A DNA stretch of 64,000 nt from Anaeromyxobacter sp. Fw109-5 (lineage in GTDB: Bacteria; Myxococcota; Myxococcia; Myxococcales; Anaeromyxobacteraceae), in NCBI RefSeq assembly GCF_000017505.1, contig NC_009675.1:2666001-2730000 (forward strand). The letters are read 5' to 3'. The notes beneath the pieces were generated by a model. It made no database searches and was not told the origin of the DNA. It saw nothing but the letters and a program-made list of their open reading frames with translations. Position numbers and translations under genes: made by a program. Below are positions 58,366 through 63,809 of the stretch, in pieces (position 1 is the first letter of the stretch; each line of letters begins with the position of its first letter).

Positions 58366-59478
58366 ATGACCCCGTCGGCGCAATCGCGGTCCCTGCGTGC
58401 GGAGCTCGACTCCCTCCGGCAGGAGTTCGCGGCGAAGATCGGCCCCCGGGACGCCGAGTACATCCGGACCGTGAGGGCGGTCGCCCGCGTCTCCCGCGTC
58501 ACGGGACGCCTCCTCATCCACTTCAGCCTCGAGCCCGTCACGTGGGCTGCAGGCGTGTGCGCGCTCGCCACGTACAAGGTGCTCGAGAACATGGAGATCG
58601 GCCACAACGTTCTGCACGGGCAATACGACTTCATGCGCGATCCGACGCTCAGCTCGGCGACGTACGAATGGGACATGGTGGGCACCGCGAAGAGCTGGAA
58701 GCGGGCGCACAACGCGACGCACCACGTCTTCACGAACGTCATCGGGCGAGACCGCGACTTCGGCTACAACGCCTTCCGCTTCTCGGCGGAGGTGCCCTGG
58801 AAGCCGATCCACCTGCTCCAGCCGCTGGTGAGCCCGCTCAGCGGCCTCTTCTTCGAGTACTCCATCGGCGCCTACGATCTCGGTCTCCTCGACGGGCTGG
58901 GCCCCCGGCCCAGCGGAGCGGCTGGCGGAAAGCGCCGGCCGCGGCGCGAGATCGCCCGCGAGCTCTGGGCCTTCGCGCGGAAGGCCGCGCGAAAGGGATT
59001 CGTCGAGTACGTGTTCTACCCCGCCCTCGCAGGCCCGCTGGCGGCGAAGGTGCTCTGCGGGAACCTGCTCGCGAACACGATCCGGAACGGCTGGGCGTAT
59101 GCCGTCATCTACTGCGGTCACCTCACCGAGCAGACCGCCACCTTCCGCGAGGAGGGCCTTGAGGACGAGGACCGGGGCGGATGGTACGTCCGGCAAGTCA
59201 CGGGCAGCAGCAACTTCGAGGCGGGACGGCTCGTGCACGTGCTGAGCGGCCACCTCGGGTTCCAGATCGAGCACCACCTCTTCCCGAACGTCCCGGCGTG
59301 GCGCTATCCGGAGATGGCCCCTCGCGTGCGAGCCATCTGCGAACGCCATGGCATCCCCTACTCGACGGGCTCGCTCGCCTCGCAGTTCGCGAGCGCGATG
59401 CGCCGGCTGGTTCGGTTCGCCGTCCCGGGTGCGGAGCGTCGCGGCGGCGCCGACGGCGCCCGCGCCCACGCGGCTTGA
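58366..59478 (+). CDS. Membrane fatty acid desaturase (acyl-lipid type)
   Basis: The 370-residue di-iron desaturase has three histidine boxes: GHNVLH (first), HNATHH (second) and the third in QIEHHLFP. The third box is QxxHH, typical of front-end and delta-type acyl-lipid desaturases. Membrane helices flank the boxes. The reaction introduces a double bond in acyl chains using O2, implying at least microaerobic use in a mainly anaerobic gene context. The ATG at 58366 is preceded by AAAGGAAG. No electron-carrier gene is next to it. Confidence 0.92.
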   Translation: MTPSAQSRSLRAELDSLRQEFAAKIGPRDAEYIRTVRAVARVSRVTGRLLIHFSLEPVTWAAGVCALATYKVLENMEIGHNVLHGQYDFMRDPTLSSATYEWDMVGTAKSWKRAHNATHHVFTNVIGRDRDFGYNAFRFSAEVPWKPIHLLQPLVSPLSGLFFEYSIGAYDLGLLDGLGPRPSGAAGGKRRPRREIARELWAFARKAARKGFVEYVFYPALAGPLAAKVLCGNLLANTIRNGWAYAVIYCGHLTEQTATFREEGLEDEDRGGWYVRQVTGSSNFEAGRLVHVLSGHLGFQIEHHLFPNVPAWRYPEMAPRVRAICERHGIPYSTGSLASQFASAMRRLVRFAVPGAERRGGADGARAHAA

Positions 59479-59646
59479 TTTGCCCGTCGCGGAAGGACCC
59501 GGGATGGCGTCACGACCCATCCGTTCCCACCGTGGCGCCCGGAGCGCCGCCGCCGCACCGTAGACTCGCGCACCTGGTCGGCGCCGCGAGCCCGGCCCTC
59601 TCCGTTCAGAGAACGGCGTTCAGCGGAGCGAGTGCGGGATTTGGTG

Positions 59647-59720
59647 TGGCCCCGGGGCGACTCGAACGCCCGGCCTACGGTTTAGGAAACCGCCGCTCTG
59701 TCCAGCTGAGCTACGGGGCC
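59647..59720 (-). tRNA. tRNA-Arg (anticodon CCU)
   Basis: The 74-nt cloverleaf reads GGCCCCG acceptor, GCTC/GAGC D-stem, GCGGT-TTCCTAA-ACCGT anticodon arm (anticodon CCU), GGGCG-TTCGAGT-CGCCC T-arm and CGGGGCC acceptor, with A as discriminator. All stems pair. CCA is not encoded, so a CCA-adding enzyme is needed. It reads AGG codons, which are rare in such GC-rich genomes. Confidence 0.95.
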
Positions 59721-60000: not shown

Positions 60001-60651
60001 ATGTCCCGCCCCCGCGCCGCTCCCCCGGACCTCGGCCACGCCCTCGCGGCGCGCTACTCGCCGCTCGCCTCCACCGCCGGATCGCTGTCGTGCGGCGACG
60101 TCCTGGAGCACGGGGCCCCACGCCCCGGCGAGACGGTGATCGATCTCGGCTGCGGCCGCGGGCGCGATCTCCTGCGCGCCGCGGAGGCGGTGGGCCCGGA
60201 CGGGCGCGCCATCGGGGTGGACGGCAACGAGGCGATGCTCGCGGCGGCCCGCGCGCTCGCCGCCGGCGCGCCCCGGGTATCGCTCGTGCGCGGCGACGTC
60301 GCCGCGGTGCCGCTGCCCGACGGGGACGCCGATCTCGTCATCTCGAACTGCGCCATCAACCACGCGCCGGACAAGGCAGCCGTGTACCGAGAGGTGCACC
60401 GTCTGCTCCGCCCGGGCGGGCGTTTCGTCGTCTCCGACGTGGTGTCGGAGACCACCCTCCCCGCCTCCGTCCGCGACGATCCCGAAGCGTGGGCAGCCTG
60501 CTACGGTGGGGCGATCCCCGAGGCCGAGTACCTCGCCGACGTCGCCAGCGCTGGCTTCTCGGACGTGCGCGTCCTGCGGCGAAGCGCTCCCTACGTGAAG
60601 GGCGGCGTGCGCGTCCTCTCCCTCACCGTGACGGCGCGCCGGCCGTCCTGA
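60001..60651 (+). CDS. ArsM-like class I SAM methyltransferase
   Basis: The 216-residue product has SAM motif I VIDLGCGRGRDLL and an acidic loop IGVDGN. The ArsM-type stretch SNCAINHAPDKAAVYREVHR contains C117, and WAACYGGAIPEAEYL contains C167. These two cysteines fall where arsenite-binding cysteines sit in ArsM, so it could methylate arsenite or another thiol-bound substrate. Other cysteines are C31 and C51. It starts at ATG 60001 with a weak ribosome site and ends 8 nt before the radical SAM gene. In this context it may modify the cysteine-rich peptides; that is inference. Confidence 0.85.
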   Translation: MSRPRAAPPDLGHALAARYSPLASTAGSLSCGDVLEHGAPRPGETVIDLGCGRGRDLLRAAEAVGPDGRAIGVDGNEAMLAAARALAAGAPRVSLVRGDVAAVPLPDGDADLVISNCAINHAPDKAAVYREVHRLLRPGGRFVVSDVVSETTLPASVRDDPEAWAACYGGAIPEAEYLADVASAGFSDVRVLRRSAPYVKGGVRVLSLTVTARRPS

Positions 60652-60659
60652 AGGACTCC

Positions 60660-62012
60660 ATGCGGCTCTCCCGCTCCACCATCGTGGCGCCCGTTCCAGG
60701 CGGCGACCAGGTGCTCCTCGTGCAGCCGCTCACCGGGCAGGCGGCGCTCCTGGGCGCCCCCGAGGTGAACGCGCTGCGCGCCCTAGAGGGCGGCGCAGGG
60801 CTCCCGGGCGCGCTCCAGGAGGCGACCCTGCGCGAGGCCGCGTTCGTCGTCGACACGGACGAGGAAGACCGCGCCCTGCTCGAGCGGGCGCGCGCCGAGT
60901 GGGCCGCCGAGGCGGTCCACTCGCCGACCCAGCTCGTCGTGGTCCCGAGCTTCGGCTGCAACCTCGCCTGCACCTACTGCTACCAGGAGGTGTTCGATCC
61001 CTCCGCGTCCGCGCTGATGCCGCCCGAGGTGGTCGAGGCGTTCTTCGCCTACGTGGACGCGCACCACGCGGGCGAGACCCCGAGGCCGTACGTGACGCTG
61101 TTCGGCGGAGAGCCGCTGCGCGACACGCCCGCCCACCACGACCGGATCGGACGCTTCCTGCGCGGCGCGGCGGCGCGCGGCCTCGAGCTGGCGGTCGTGA
61201 CGAACGGGCACGACCTCGAGGCGTTCCTGCCCGCGCTCGCGGCCGGTCCCGTGAAGGAGGTCCAGGTCACGCTCGACGGCCCGCGGTCGGTCCACGACGC
61301 GCGCAGGCCGCATTCGAGCGGGCGGGGCAGCTTCGACCGGATCGTGGCGGGAGTCGACGCGCTCGTCGCGGCCGCGATCCCAGTGAACCTTCGGGTGGTC
61401 GCCGACCGCCGCAACCTGGCCGCGCTCCCCGAGCTCGCCGAGCTGGCCGCCGCGAAGGGCTGGCTCGACCTGCCCGCCTCGCGCTTCCGGACGCAGGTGG
61501 GGCGGAACTACGAGCTGTTCGGCTGCGCCTCGCGACAGCGCCGCGAGGATCTCTTCGACCGCGTGGAGCTATGGGCAGGCTACCTCGAGCTCGCCGAAGC
61601 GCACCCGATCCTGCGGCGCTTCCACGCGCCGCGCTTCCACGGCATCGGCCACCTCGCCGAGACCGGCGAGCTGCCGGCACCGAACTTCGACGCCTGCCCG
61701 GCCACCAAGAAGGAGTGGGCCTTCGGACCGGACGGACGGCTGTACGGGTGCACCGCCACGGTGGGCCACCCCGCCCACGTGCTGGGCAGGTTCCATCCCG
61801 GGATCGAGCGGGACGACGAGGCCGTCGCCGCGTGGCGACGGCGCAGCACGCTCACGATCGCGCGGTGCGAGGGGTGCTCGGCCGCGGCGGTATGCGGCGG
61901 CGGCTGCGGGGCCATCGCCTGGGACCGGGACGGGACTCCGCTCGCGCCGGACTGCCGCCCGGTCGCGGAGCTGTACGGGCTCGGGGCGCGCTACTACGGG
62001 CTCGGCGCCTGA
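60660..62012 (+). CDS. Radical SAM/SPASM peptide-maturase-like protein
   Basis: The 450-residue product has an N-terminal segment (1-85; QPLTGQAALLGAPEVNALRA) like that of peptide maturases. The radical SAM cluster motif is CNLACTYC (C100, C104, C107), with GGEPL and the later barrel strands. A SPASM domain carries C346, C364, C403, C406, C412, C416 and C432, enough for two auxiliary clusters. SPASM maturases typically modify small peptides, forming thioether or carbon-carbon bonds. ATG 60660 is behind AAGGA. Two short cysteine-rich genes follow and are the obvious candidate substrates. Confidence 0.92.
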   Translation: MRLSRSTIVAPVPGGDQVLLVQPLTGQAALLGAPEVNALRALEGGAGLPGALQEATLREAAFVVDTDEEDRALLERARAEWAAEAVHSPTQLVVVPSFGCNLACTYCYQEVFDPSASALMPPEVVEAFFAYVDAHHAGETPRPYVTLFGGEPLRDTPAHHDRIGRFLRGAAARGLELAVVTNGHDLEAFLPALAAGPVKEVQVTLDGPRSVHDARRPHSSGRGSFDRIVAGVDALVAAAIPVNLRVVADRRNLAALPELAELAAAKGWLDLPASRFRTQVGRNYELFGCASRQRREDLFDRVELWAGYLELAEAHPILRRFHAPRFHGIGHLAETGELPAPNFDACPATKKEWAFGPDGRLYGCTATVGHPAHVLGRFHPGIERDDEAVAAWRRRSTLTIARCEGCSAAAVCGGGCGAIAWDRDGTPLAPDCRPVAELYGLGARYYGLGA

Positions 62013-62018
62013 AGGCGT

Positions 62019-62045
62019 GGATGTGGACCGGCTCGCTCCACATCC
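62019..62045 (+). other. Hairpin in the leader of the small cysteine genes
   Basis: GGATGTGGA (62019-62027) pairs with TCCACATCC (62037-62045) around a 9-nt loop, just after the radical SAM stop. A second hairpin, CGAACGG (62095-62101) with CCGTTCG (62108-62114), follows before the 61-aa gene. Neither has a T-tract; they may be mRNA processing or stability elements. Confidence 0.4.
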
Positions 62046-62147
62046 GGGGACCGGTCGACGGCTTGCGACCCCGTGTCGCGAACCCCAAGAGCCACGAACG
62101 GCTCGTACCGTTCGGCGCGACGATCCGGGGACTTCCTGGAGGCGAAC

Positions 62148-62333
62148 ATGGTCCCGGTGGCGAAGCAGGTGACCCTGGAGCTCTCTCCGAGAGACCTCAG
62201 GATCATGGTCCAGTCGCTCGTGAACTGTCTCGCGACGTGCCAGACGCACGCGGTGAAGCCGGACGCACCGTGCGAGGACTGCGACGCCGCCCGTGCGCTG
62301 AAGGAGAAGATCGAGTCCCACCTCGAGAGCTGA
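62148..62333 (+). CDS. 61-aa cysteine-containing small protein
   Basis: The 61-residue product begins MVPVAKQVTLELSPRDLRIM. Cysteines at 27, 31, 42 and 45 form CxxxC and CxxC motifs, and the C-terminus is charged and helical. ATG 62148 has GGAGG 6 nt upstream. The CxxxC/CxxC layout suggests metal or disulfide chemistry. It could be a maturase partner or a metallochaperone rather than a substrate. I know no named family for it. Confidence 0.8.
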   Translation: MVPVAKQVTLELSPRDLRIMVQSLVNCLATCQTHAVKPDAPCEDCDAARALKEKIESHLES

Positions 62334-62344
62334 AGGAACGCGCC

Positions 62345-62449
62345 ATGAAGCTGCTCACCAAGCTCAAGAAGCCCGCCTGCTGCGCCCCCGAGAAGGCCGC
62401 GCAGTGCTGCGCCAAGGCGTCCCGGCTCGTGTCGGGCTGCCACGACTGA
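62345..62449 (+). CDS. 34-aa cysteine-rich peptide, candidate RiPP precursor or metallopeptide
   Basis: The 34-residue product reads MKLLTKLKKPACCAPEKAAQ, then CCAKASRLVSGCHD. It has two CC pairs (12-13 and 21-22) and C32, with a lysine-rich N-terminus. AAGGA lies 5-6 nt before the ATG and it starts 11 nt after the 61-aa gene. Cysteine is 15% of residues, far above chance in non-coding DNA. Position directly downstream of a SPASM maturase makes it a candidate substrate; a CC-rich metal(loid)-binding peptide is the alternative. Confidence 0.75.
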   Translation: MKLLTKLKKPACCAPEKAAQCCAKASRLVSGCHD

Positions 62450-62536
62450 ACCCGCGGCGGGATCCGTCCCGCCTTCCCCCACTCCTCCCCCGCGACCGGC
62501 ATCGGCCGGCACGGGAGGGGCTTGCCCGGAGATCCG

Positions 62537-62872
62537 ATGTCCGCGTCCGTCGAGGAGATCAGCGCAGAGAGATACGACGAGCAGGTGCTCGGGGCCGAGA
62601 CCCCGGTGGTGCTCGACTTCTACTCCACCGAGTGCCCGCCGTGCGAGGCGCTCGCGCCCAAGCTCGAGGCCGTCGCGGAGCAGTTCGCGGGCAAGGTGCG
62701 GTTCCTCAAGATCTTCCGGCAAGCCAACCGCGAGCTCGCGACGCGGCTCGGCGTCACCGGCAGCCCCACCCTGCTGTTCTTAAAGCGTGGCCGCGAGGCC
62801 GCGGGGCGCATGACGGGTGAGGAGATCAAGCGCTCCGCCCTGAAGGCGGCCGTCGAGCAGCTCCTCGCCTAG
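62537..62872 (+). CDS. Thioredoxin with CPPC active site
   Basis: The 111-residue thioredoxin fold has its active site at STECPPCEAL (C33, C36), where classic thioredoxin is CGPC. The cis-proline loop is VTGSPTLLFLKRG. The N-terminal strand/helix and the LKIFRQANRELATRLG segment fit the fold. CPPC changes redox potential compared with CGPC. ATG 62537 follows GGAG at good spacing. It is followed 16 nt later by the thioredoxin reductase gene, so the two should work as a pair. Confidence 0.9.
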   Translation: MSASVEEISAERYDEQVLGAETPVVLDFYSTECPPCEALAPKLEAVAEQFAGKVRFLKIFRQANRELATRLGVTGSPTLLFLKRGREAAGRMTGEEIKRSALKAAVEQLLA

Positions 62873-62888
62873 CGGACGGACCGACGCC

Positions 62889-63809
62889 ATGAACGAGTGC
62901 TACGACATCGTGGTGATCGGCGCGGGGCCCGCGGGGCTCACCGCCGCCATCTACGCCGCGCGTGCCCGGCTCCGGACGCTGGTGCTGGACGAGAGCATCC
63001 CGGGCGGCCAGGTGAAGACGACGCACAAGGTGTCGAACTACCCCGGCTTCCCCGAGGACATCCACGGCGCGGAGCTCGCGACGGCGTTCTCGCTGCAGGC
63101 CGGGCGGTTCGGGGCCAAGATCCGGCGCTCCGTCGAGATCACGGACCACGAGCTCTCCGGGTTCGTGAAGACGCTCGAGCTCGACGAGTCCGAGACGATC
63201 GAGGCGCGCGCCGTCATCGTCGCCACCGGGGCGAAGCCGCGTCCCCTCGGACTCCCCGGCGAGGACACGTTCAAGGGGCGAGGGATCTCGTACTGCGCGA
63301 CGTGCGACGGCGCCTACTTCGAGGGCAAGGACATCCACGTCATCGGCGGCGGCAACTCCGCCGTGGAGGAGGCGCTGTTCCTCACGCAGTTCGCGCGCAG
63401 CGTCACGATCGTCCACCAGTTCGAGCAGTTCCAGGCCGAGCCGGCCTCCGCGCACGAGGCGCTCGGCAACCCGAAGATCCGCGTCCTGTTCGGCCACGAG
63501 CCGCGGGCGTTCCACGGCGAGACCGCGCTCGAACGGCTGGAGGTCGAGGCGCTGCGGACGAAGGAGCGGAAGGTGCTCCGCACCGACGGCGTGTTCGTCT
63601 TCGTCGGGATGGTGCCGCGGACGGATCTGCTCGCGAAGTACGTCGAGCTCGCGCCCGGCGGCTACGTGAAGACGACCGACGACATGGAGACCGAGGTCTC
63701 GGGCCTCTACGCGGCGGGAGACATCCGCGTGAAGAAGTTCCGGCAGATCACGACGGCCGTGTCCGACGGCACGATCGCCGCGCTGGCCGCCCAGAAGTAC
63801 CTCCGCTGA
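62889..63809 (+). CDS. Thioredoxin reductase-like flavoprotein lacking the NADPH 2'-phosphate motif
   Basis: The 306-residue FAD protein has GAGPAGLTAAIYAARA, SIPGGQV, VIVATGAKPR, a redox pair in SYCATCDGAYF (C136, C139), VIGGGNSAVEEALFLTQF and LYAAGDI. In NADPH-dependent thioredoxin reductases, HRRxxFRA follows the nucleotide loop. Here the same place reads HQFEQFQA, so the arginines that bind the 2'-phosphate are missing. Electron donor may be NADH, ferredoxin or another carrier. It is 16 nt after the CPPC thioredoxin. Confidence 0.9.
   Translation: MNECYDIVVIGAGPAGLTAAIYAARARLRTLVLDESIPGGQVKTTHKVSNYPGFPEDIHGAELATAFSLQAGRFGAKIRRSVEITDHELSGFVKTLELDESETIEARAVIVATGAKPRPLGLPGEDTFKGRGISYCATCDGAYFEGKDIHVIGGGNSAVEEALFLTQFARSVTIVHQFEQFQAEPASAHEALGNPKIRVLFGHEPRAFHGETALERLEVEALRTKERKVLRTDGVFVFVGMVPRTDLLAKYVELAPGGYVKTTDDMETEVSGLYAAGDIRVKKFRQITTAVSDGTIAALAAQKYLR

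Follow-up and report, generated by a model that had tools for sequence, protein, structure and literature searches.

The subject of this analysis is a compact gene cluster of Anaeromyxobacter sp. Fw109-5, found at 60001-63809 of a window of 64,000 bases (bases 2666001-2730000 of NC_009675.1) that was analysed as a whole. Six plus-strand open reading frames lie there, in the order and at the coordinates given in a preliminary description made from the sequence alone: a short ArsM-like S-adenosylmethionine (SAM) methyltransferase of 216 residues (60001-60651), a radical SAM/SPASM peptide maturase of 450 residues with a predicted CteB-like fold (60660-62012), a 61-residue protein with four conserved cysteines (62148-62333), a 34-residue precursor-like peptide, MKLLTKLKKPACCAPEKAAQCCAKASRLVSGCHD (62345-62449), a dedicated thioredoxin (Trx) of 111 residues (62537-62872), and a thioredoxin reductase (TrxR)-like flavoprotein of 306 residues (62889-63809). 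Both small frames were also predicted by our own codon-usage gene caller, a crude tool that had only the four large cluster genes as its training set and is uncertain in its start codons. We are confident that the 34-residue peptide and the maturase are a functional pair, and our best reading of the cluster is a new, unnamed system that makes a ribosomally synthesized and post-translationally modified peptide (RiPP). Below, L numbers denote loci and G numbers genomes.

Homologues of the 34-residue peptide occur at 27 of the 32 loci that were scored, which comprise the window and 31 others, including loci from 195 genomes of the phylum; a duplicate, L095 (the same as L010), was excluded. Also left out were L118, a repeat of L095, L116 (G003), intended as an ordinary ArsM for comparison, where no gene was usably called, and L112, part of a Rhodococcus plasmid. 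The last 16 residues, AQCCAKxSxxxxGCHD (62399-62446), form the predicted modification and ligand region: the A, Q, C, C, A and K, the following S, and the final G, C, H and D are fixed in 27/27 sequences, and the other five positions vary. Over these 16 codons the proportion of synonymous differences (pS) is 0.44 and that of nonsynonymous differences (pN) 0.08, a pN/pS of 0.18 summed over all pairs. Because the ending is kept at every locus with a homologue while synonymous sites vary, we take the 34-codon frame to be a real gene. A degenerate DNA pattern for the ending matches once in the window and in 0 of 100 shuffles. The N-terminal part is short and variable in length and starts MKxL (22 aligned sequences). 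There are five cysteines in the 34 residues, and C21, C22 and C32 are invariant; of the CC...CC...C pattern first described these three stand, whereas two lineages (L055, L094) lack the CC near the N-terminus. Neither small frame is a product of chance.

No Pfam or NCBIfam model matches the peptide up to an E value of 1, profile searches of the PDB returned nothing credible for either small protein, a search of the plasmid collection with the peptide found nothing, and its DNA pattern has no match in the viral contig collection. Sampling outside the Myxococcota covered 398 genomes of Pseudomonadota, among which the single weak match (G446) has neither the motif nor a cluster gene in the 3 kb covered and is attributed to chance. 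Weak profile matches also occur in G120, G148 and G190, and as second matches in G052 and G193 (E 0.003-0.04); those in G120, G148 and G190 were rejected on their surroundings, which hold neither the motif nor a cluster gene. In G043, a second copy of the 61-residue and 34-residue genes lies on another contig (L060 27-299).

The relation between peptide and maturase is well supported because of their linkage. The maturase is present at 44% identity or more in 24 of the 195 phylum genomes, and strong matches to the peptide profile (E 1e-12 or better) occur in 23 genomes, all of them within those 24, so that the co-occurrence proposed as a check in the preliminary description holds in 23/24 genomes. 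The peptide-positive genomes span seven families (f1, f5, f6, f8, f11, f13 and f31). Six further genomes have a maturase-like match at 28-33% identity, and none of these has a peptide match. The hypergeometric value for the pairing is 5e-29, a figure that ignores kinship and is not to be read as a probability. With the maturase as query and one genome per species, 25 loci were retrieved, 24 of them at 61-84% identity; L027 (29%) was left out. The scan of all species used the patterns of a single maturase.

The five core genes, all but that of the 61-residue protein, stand together at 19/32 loci, and several of the 13 incomplete loci end at a contig end or at the edge of the retrieved stretch. 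There are clear gaps at L010, which lacks the peptide, and at L016, where no TrxR was called; at L012 the ArsM gene is on a different contig of the same genome; at L055 the maturase was missed by the gene caller, and a search places it directly after the peptide. Wherever Trx and peptide are separate genes at the same locus, Trx lies 3' of the peptide, on the same strand and 60-209 bases away (20/20 loci). At 11 loci ArsM precedes the peptide within 200 bases and shares its strand, and by the starts of the gene caller the two overlap by four bases in L020, L021, L054, L062 and L094. In L011, L013 and L014 the peptide is divergent from ArsM-maturase, and in L017, L018, L020, L021, L023 and L024 the maturase is on the other strand. 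Thus the conserved gene order that had been anticipated does not hold: lineages differ by rearrangement or inversion of the set, and what is kept is the set itself, not its order. In the deep-branching loci L053 (G070), L054 (G068), L055 (G193) and L094 (G006), the genes form a tight operon of ArsM, peptide, maturase and a Trx::TrxR fusion (domains checked by Pfam for L094); in L053, L054 and L094 only 7-73 bases separate the peptide from the maturase that follows it. The fusion and the position of the peptide close before the maturase are the strongest signs of one pathway, and Trx and TrxR very probably belong to it.

The maturase matches the radical SAM domain PF04055 at 57.5 bits and the general SPASM-domain model TIGR04085 at 41.3 bits (cut-off 27); the Pfam SPASM model PF13186 gives no match at E 0.001 and none is listed up to E 1. 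It contains three radical-SAM cysteines, seven of SPASM type, and C289; ten of the eleven are invariant in a 29-row alignment that holds one duplicate row, and C432 is present in 28 rows with a gap in the other. The arrangement follows the pattern of SPASM maturases, CxxxCxxC and CX9-15GX4C ... CX2CX5CX3C ... C, with C100/104/107 for the first part and C346, G359, C364, C403, C406, C412, C416 and C432 for the second. C289 (61524-61526) falls outside this pattern, in a low-confidence loop of the structure model. The model as a whole has a predicted local distance difference test score (pLDDT) of 86.9, and its best structural match is CteB (5wgg; Z 27.2, root-mean-square deviation 3.9, 400 aligned residues, 16% identity). 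Three strands and three helices are predicted for residues 1-85, and the alignments with CteB and TigE begin at residues 4 and 1, respectively. From the modelled secondary structure, the beta-beta-beta-alpha-alpha-alpha domain at about residues 8-85 (60681-60914) may resemble a RiPP recognition element (RRE), an element that CteB carries in its N-terminal domain according to PMC8172795.

Against the best 25 of 70 NCBIfam families, the maturase reaches the cut-off of no peptide-maturase family, only that of TIGR04085. The best-scoring named families are the C-rich RiPP maturases TIGR04463 (126.3 bits) and CefB, NF038107 (108.7 bits), and the geopeptide family TIGR04280 (116.3 bits), far under their respective cut-offs of 525, 600 and 400; the SCIFF family TIGR03974, with a cut-off of 425, gives 77.9 bits. 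Assignment of the peptide to the geopeptides, SCIFF or CefA was dropped, since the maturase falls below the cut-offs of those families. In the one TIGR04463 cluster viewed, the CefA precursor gene has 680 codons, in contrast to the 34-residue peptide here. Plasmid matches to the maturase number 30, are weak, and in no case extend over 80% of its length. Cousin maturases at 30-32% identity in G074 and G115 lie directly downstream of a different peptide of 59-67 residues ending CECCINV(D/S) (L096 4489-4692; L097 9596-9775). This is one more family of small peptides, and its position is consistent with peptide modification as the role of the wider maturase group. In the open-licence literature no paper joins 'geopeptide' with 'radical SAM'; none joins 'Anaeromyxobacter', SPASM and RiPP; and none joins arsenic, RiPP, cysteine-rich, radical SAM and precursor peptide. 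The combination of 'arsenite methyltransferase', radical SAM and RiPP returns one selenoprotein review, and the portion of it that is available does not describe the system.

The nearest structural relative is the CteB/CteA pair of the ranthipeptide/SCIFF type (PDB 5wgg, 5why), which the cluster resembles in the fold of the maturase from the N-terminal domain on, in the SPASM-type cysteines, and, in the deep branches, in the small cysteine peptide beside the maturase. According to PMC8172795, SCIFF precursors have about six cysteines in their C-terminal 45 residues, and the SCIFF peptide Tte1186a carries a Cys32-Thr37 thioether, that is, Cys-X4-Thr spacing; C21-X4-S26 of the 34-residue peptide has the spacing of this reported pair. 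The differences are these: five cysteines in 34 residues (three of them invariant), partnership with ArsM and Trx/TrxR, and only 16% identity between the maturases.

The METHYLTRANSFERASE, a 216-residue ArsM-like protein, aligns with the structures 4kw7 and 4fr0 of the Cyanidioschyzon arsenic methyltransferase so as to pair C31 with C72, C117 with C174 and C167 with C224. In an alignment of 28 rows, in which L095 duplicates L010, C117 and C167 are present in 28/28 and C31 in all 24 rows that cover it. According to PMC9013690, the arsenite methyltransferase AS3MT binds As(III) on C62, C157 and C207 with the participation of a fourth cysteine, C33, thioredoxin reduces the C33-C62 disulfide, and AS3MT is able to methylate its own cysteines. 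The likeness of the window protein to ArsM and AS3MT thus lies in the three aligned As(III) cysteines and in the association with thioredoxin; it differs in its length, in matching only part of the profile, and in having no cysteine in the stretch of 26 residues that leads up to the LSCG motif. Indeed, no cysteine precedes C31 in the window protein, and there is no counterpart of AS3MT C33. Cysteines upstream of the motif were counted at 24 loci; six of 30 entries (L003, L004, L023, L053, L098 and L117) fell outside the search pattern and were left out. Twelve of the 24 proteins have no cysteine in those 26 residues; the peptide is known for 11 of the twelve, and in every case it has the N-terminal CC. 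Among the other twelve, with upstream cysteines, eight have the peptide CC too, two (L022, L115) are without a known peptide, and in L055 and L094 a peptide without CC accompanies an ArsM with two or three upstream cysteines. This distribution, read from sequence, suggests that thiols may shift between ArsM and peptide across lineages.

The genome of the window has a second ArsM-like gene (L098; G000:C1:3720447-3721031, minus strand), which scores 206 bits, the next best match scoring 59. It encodes glycine at the first two arsenite positions and has an in-frame TGA at the third, and is likely a selenoprotein; an ArsM selenoprotein with a UxxG motif is listed in a published review.

The thioredoxin matches PF00085 at 74.2 bits (gathering score 23.5) and TIGR01068 at 67.7 bits, below the cut-off of 96.8. 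Its active site reads ECPPCEAL in 24/26 rows and ECAPCEAL in the other two, one row being a duplicate. The reductase matches TIGR01292 at 343.5 bits, barely over the cut-off of 343.45, and the L094 fusion lies below it at 290.1. One of the 26 reductase rows is too short and one is a duplicate; in all 25 rows that cover the sites, the redox motif is CATC, the NADPH motif VxxxHRRDxxRA is absent, and the HRRDxxR position is occupied by (H/N)Q(F/L)xx(F/L)Q, the window having VTIVHQFEQFQA. The reductase had earlier been called unusual, and this is borne out by the absence of the NADPH motif. In the Desulfovibrio vulgaris enzyme DvTRi, VxxxHRRDxxRA is likewise not conserved, and NAD(P)H does not reduce that protein (PMC5627308). 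The likeness to DvTRi is one of motif, unaligned, and the cluster enzyme differs in having its own Trx, as a neighbouring gene or a fusion partner, in a peptide cluster. Taken together, the missing arginine motif and the DvTRi parallel make it likely, by analogy, that the cluster TrxR uses an electron donor other than NADPH.

The 61-residue protein occurs at 16/32 loci at least, some loci being incomplete, and was not found at L053, L054 or L094. Its C27, C31, C42 and C45 are invariant in 13/13 aligned sequences and are placed about the turn between the two helices of a predicted hairpin (model pLDDT 84.3). It has no NCBIfam match and only Pfam matches below cut-off; a PHROG spanin-family match (E 0.0025) was set aside as a chance match between helices. 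Of the members first assigned to the cluster, the peptide, the SPASM protein, the thioredoxin and the reductase stand, whereas the 61-residue protein does not stand as an obligatory part, and the idea that it might be a second obligatory substrate was dropped on the same count.

Eleven clusters of neighbouring genes recur at three or more loci; four are unscanned, and one member was scanned for each of the others. The neighbours include a flavin adenine dinucleotide (FAD) oxidoreductase (Pyr_redox_2; 7/32 loci), an ECF sigma factor that carries a zinc-finger domain (6/32), a rhodanese (PF00581; 4/32), DUF6132 (4/32, plus a similar-looking unscanned cluster at five), DUF6125 (3/32) and an ABC-ATPase-like gene (4/32, unscanned). 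A DUF5714 gene is present at 6/32 loci, L005, L007 (9350-10072), L008, L012, L014 and L053, and is absent from the gene calls beside the cluster in the window; by gene-caller starts it overlaps the maturase gene by four bases in L007, L008, L012 and L014. It matches part of the selenoprotein MbdU model (NF045648), which is named metal-binding, at 141.3 bits against a cut-off of 600. Near the cluster in distant lineages there is also a conserved membrane-like peptide of 28-29 residues with one helix (L005 12552-12641, L007 14754-14843, L094 7689-7775). In the window itself, a tRNA-Arg(CCT) gene (59646-59720, minus strand), a possible insertion site, lies just before the cluster, in opposite orientation, and is all that the RNA-element scan found. 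A 370-residue frame (58366-59478, plus strand), which presumably encodes a relative of fatty-acid desaturases, also precedes the cluster. The promoter scan gave zero sigma-70-like sites and two terminator-like sites against 0.8 expected, and was not used as evidence.

How might these components work together? The preliminary description set a peptide modified by radical SAM chemistry and methylation beside a metal(loid)-handling thiol peptide as alternatives. The two are not mutually exclusive, and we favour joining them because ArsM keeps its arsenite cysteine triad. Tentatively, then, we read the cluster as a RiPP-type thiol-peptide system coupled to metalloid methylation. The retained triad is also the reason for proposing the use of As(III), and we give an As(III)-like substrate an even chance. 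In this model the 34-residue peptide would be a precursor whose short N-terminal MKxL part is read by the RRE-like domain of the maturase. The CteB-like maturase would then modify the invariant C-terminal core; our best guess, from spacing and by analogy with SCIFF, is a thioether between C21 and S26, which would leave C22, C32, H33 and D34 as ligands. The matured peptide could bind a soft element through thiols, As(III) being the likeliest, and act in trans with the short ArsM, which keeps the three arsenite cysteines but, in the window and in close relatives, is without the fourth one, the resolving cysteine near the N-terminus. Trx and TrxR, drawing on a donor that is probably not NADPH, would re-reduce the disulfide left by ArsM-type methylation, and the 61-residue hairpin may be an optional helper that binds metal or thiols. 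We propose that peptide and ArsM are linked because of the gene overlap, their co-retention and the cysteine pattern; a role of the peptide as carrier or thiol arm for ArsM is conceivable, and somewhat more doubtful than the coupling itself. In its boldest form, which we consider unlikely, the matured peptide would be a ribosomal cofactor built by radical SAM chemistry, a detached thiol arm of a shortened ArsM that binds As(III) or a comparable metalloid on the three invariant cysteines and is recycled by an NADPH-independent Trx/TrxR pair, possibly with a peptide-bound organoarsenical as product.

Several observations weigh against this coupling. G046 has the maturase, ArsM, Trx and TrxR and no peptide match anywhere in the genome. 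The short ArsM is found in 24/24 maturase genomes and also, alone, in G192 (L115 8870-9511), where it is close to those of the clade and has no peptide or maturase in its 19 kb stretch or among the genome matches; this ArsM may therefore function with no peptide. The ArsM gene of G050 stands on a separate contig. The short ArsM proteins of G068 and G070 score 166.6 and 178 bits, barely more than ordinary ArsM-like genes (161.9 bits and less), and these two were recognised as the short type because they lie beside the peptide. The window protein itself reaches only 181.9 bits against the arsenite-methyltransferase model NF008823, for which the cut-off is 263, and matches profile positions 63-232 of 272. 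Nor need the missing fourth cysteine be replaced, since a two-cysteine ArsM is known, to judge from a title in the reference list of PMC9213503. As for the cysteine pattern, the independent changes behind it are few; of the 12 loci where ArsM has upstream cysteines, 10 have either a CC-bearing peptide or no known one, and the L003 ArsM has a cysteine at residue 3, outside the 26 residues that were scored. Finally, no arsenic gene is named among the neighbour clusters at three or more loci, four of the eleven being unscanned.

The most serious competitor is a RiPP natural product or metallophore that the maturase cross-links, ArsM methylates (on a cysteine sulfur, for instance) and an oligopeptide (OPT) transporter moves, Trx/TrxR serving only to hold its thiols reduced while it matures. 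An OPT-family gene (PF03169, 286.8 bits) does follow Trx::TrxR in L053, and in L054 an unscanned gene of similar size and start stands at the same place; the self-methylation of AS3MT cysteines reported in PMC9013690 implies that the ArsM fold is capable of S-methylation, and the four-base overlaps of ArsM and peptide at five loci also speak for this reading. The core, however, is near-invariant over seven families, and most secreted RiPPs lack such near-invariant cores; no protease or exporter is named among the neighbour clusters at three or more loci (the ABC-ATPase-like gene at 4/32 being unscanned), and ArsM keeps three arsenite cysteines for which peptide methylation has no obvious need. 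We think this reading rather unlikely. Less probable again is a redox or sulfur-trafficking peptide, a persulfide or disulfide carrier that radical SAM chemistry modifies and Trx/TrxR reduces, while sulfur, selenium or tellurium, not arsenic, would be the target of the ArsM-like enzyme: this reading draws on the recurrent rhodanese, FAD oxidoreductase, DUF6132 and ECF sigma factor neighbours and on a PhsA-like reductase near the L014 cluster (435 bits, under a cut-off of 694), but each of these neighbours occurs at no more than 7/32 loci, and their clusters include none of L053, L054, L055 and L094.

The peptide might instead be an unprocessed, metallothionein-like metal binder beside an unrelated maturase. 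It is cysteine-rich, and 34 residues is not a leader-like length, but the 23/24 co-occurrence with the maturase, the deep-branch operons, the presence of only three invariant cysteines, and the invariant S, G, H and D make this very unlikely. A chance adjacency of unrelated genes would explain why the order differs between lineages; it is contradicted by the co-occurrence, by the persistence of the set through inversion and rearrangement over seven families, and by the fusion and operon of the deep branches, and we give it almost no weight.

Radical-SAM peptide systems are usually taken to be makers of antibiotics or signals. Here a near-invariant short peptide keeps company, across seven families, with a methyltransferase of the arsenite type and with a thiol-reducing pair of its own. 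Should it prove to be a carrier or cofactor, anaerobic soil bacteria would have a cofactor of ribosomal origin for metalloid chemistry. The peptide would then also provide a handle on arsenic methylation in the absence of a standard ArsM, as in the genome of the window, whose other strong ArsM match lacks the arsenite cysteines.

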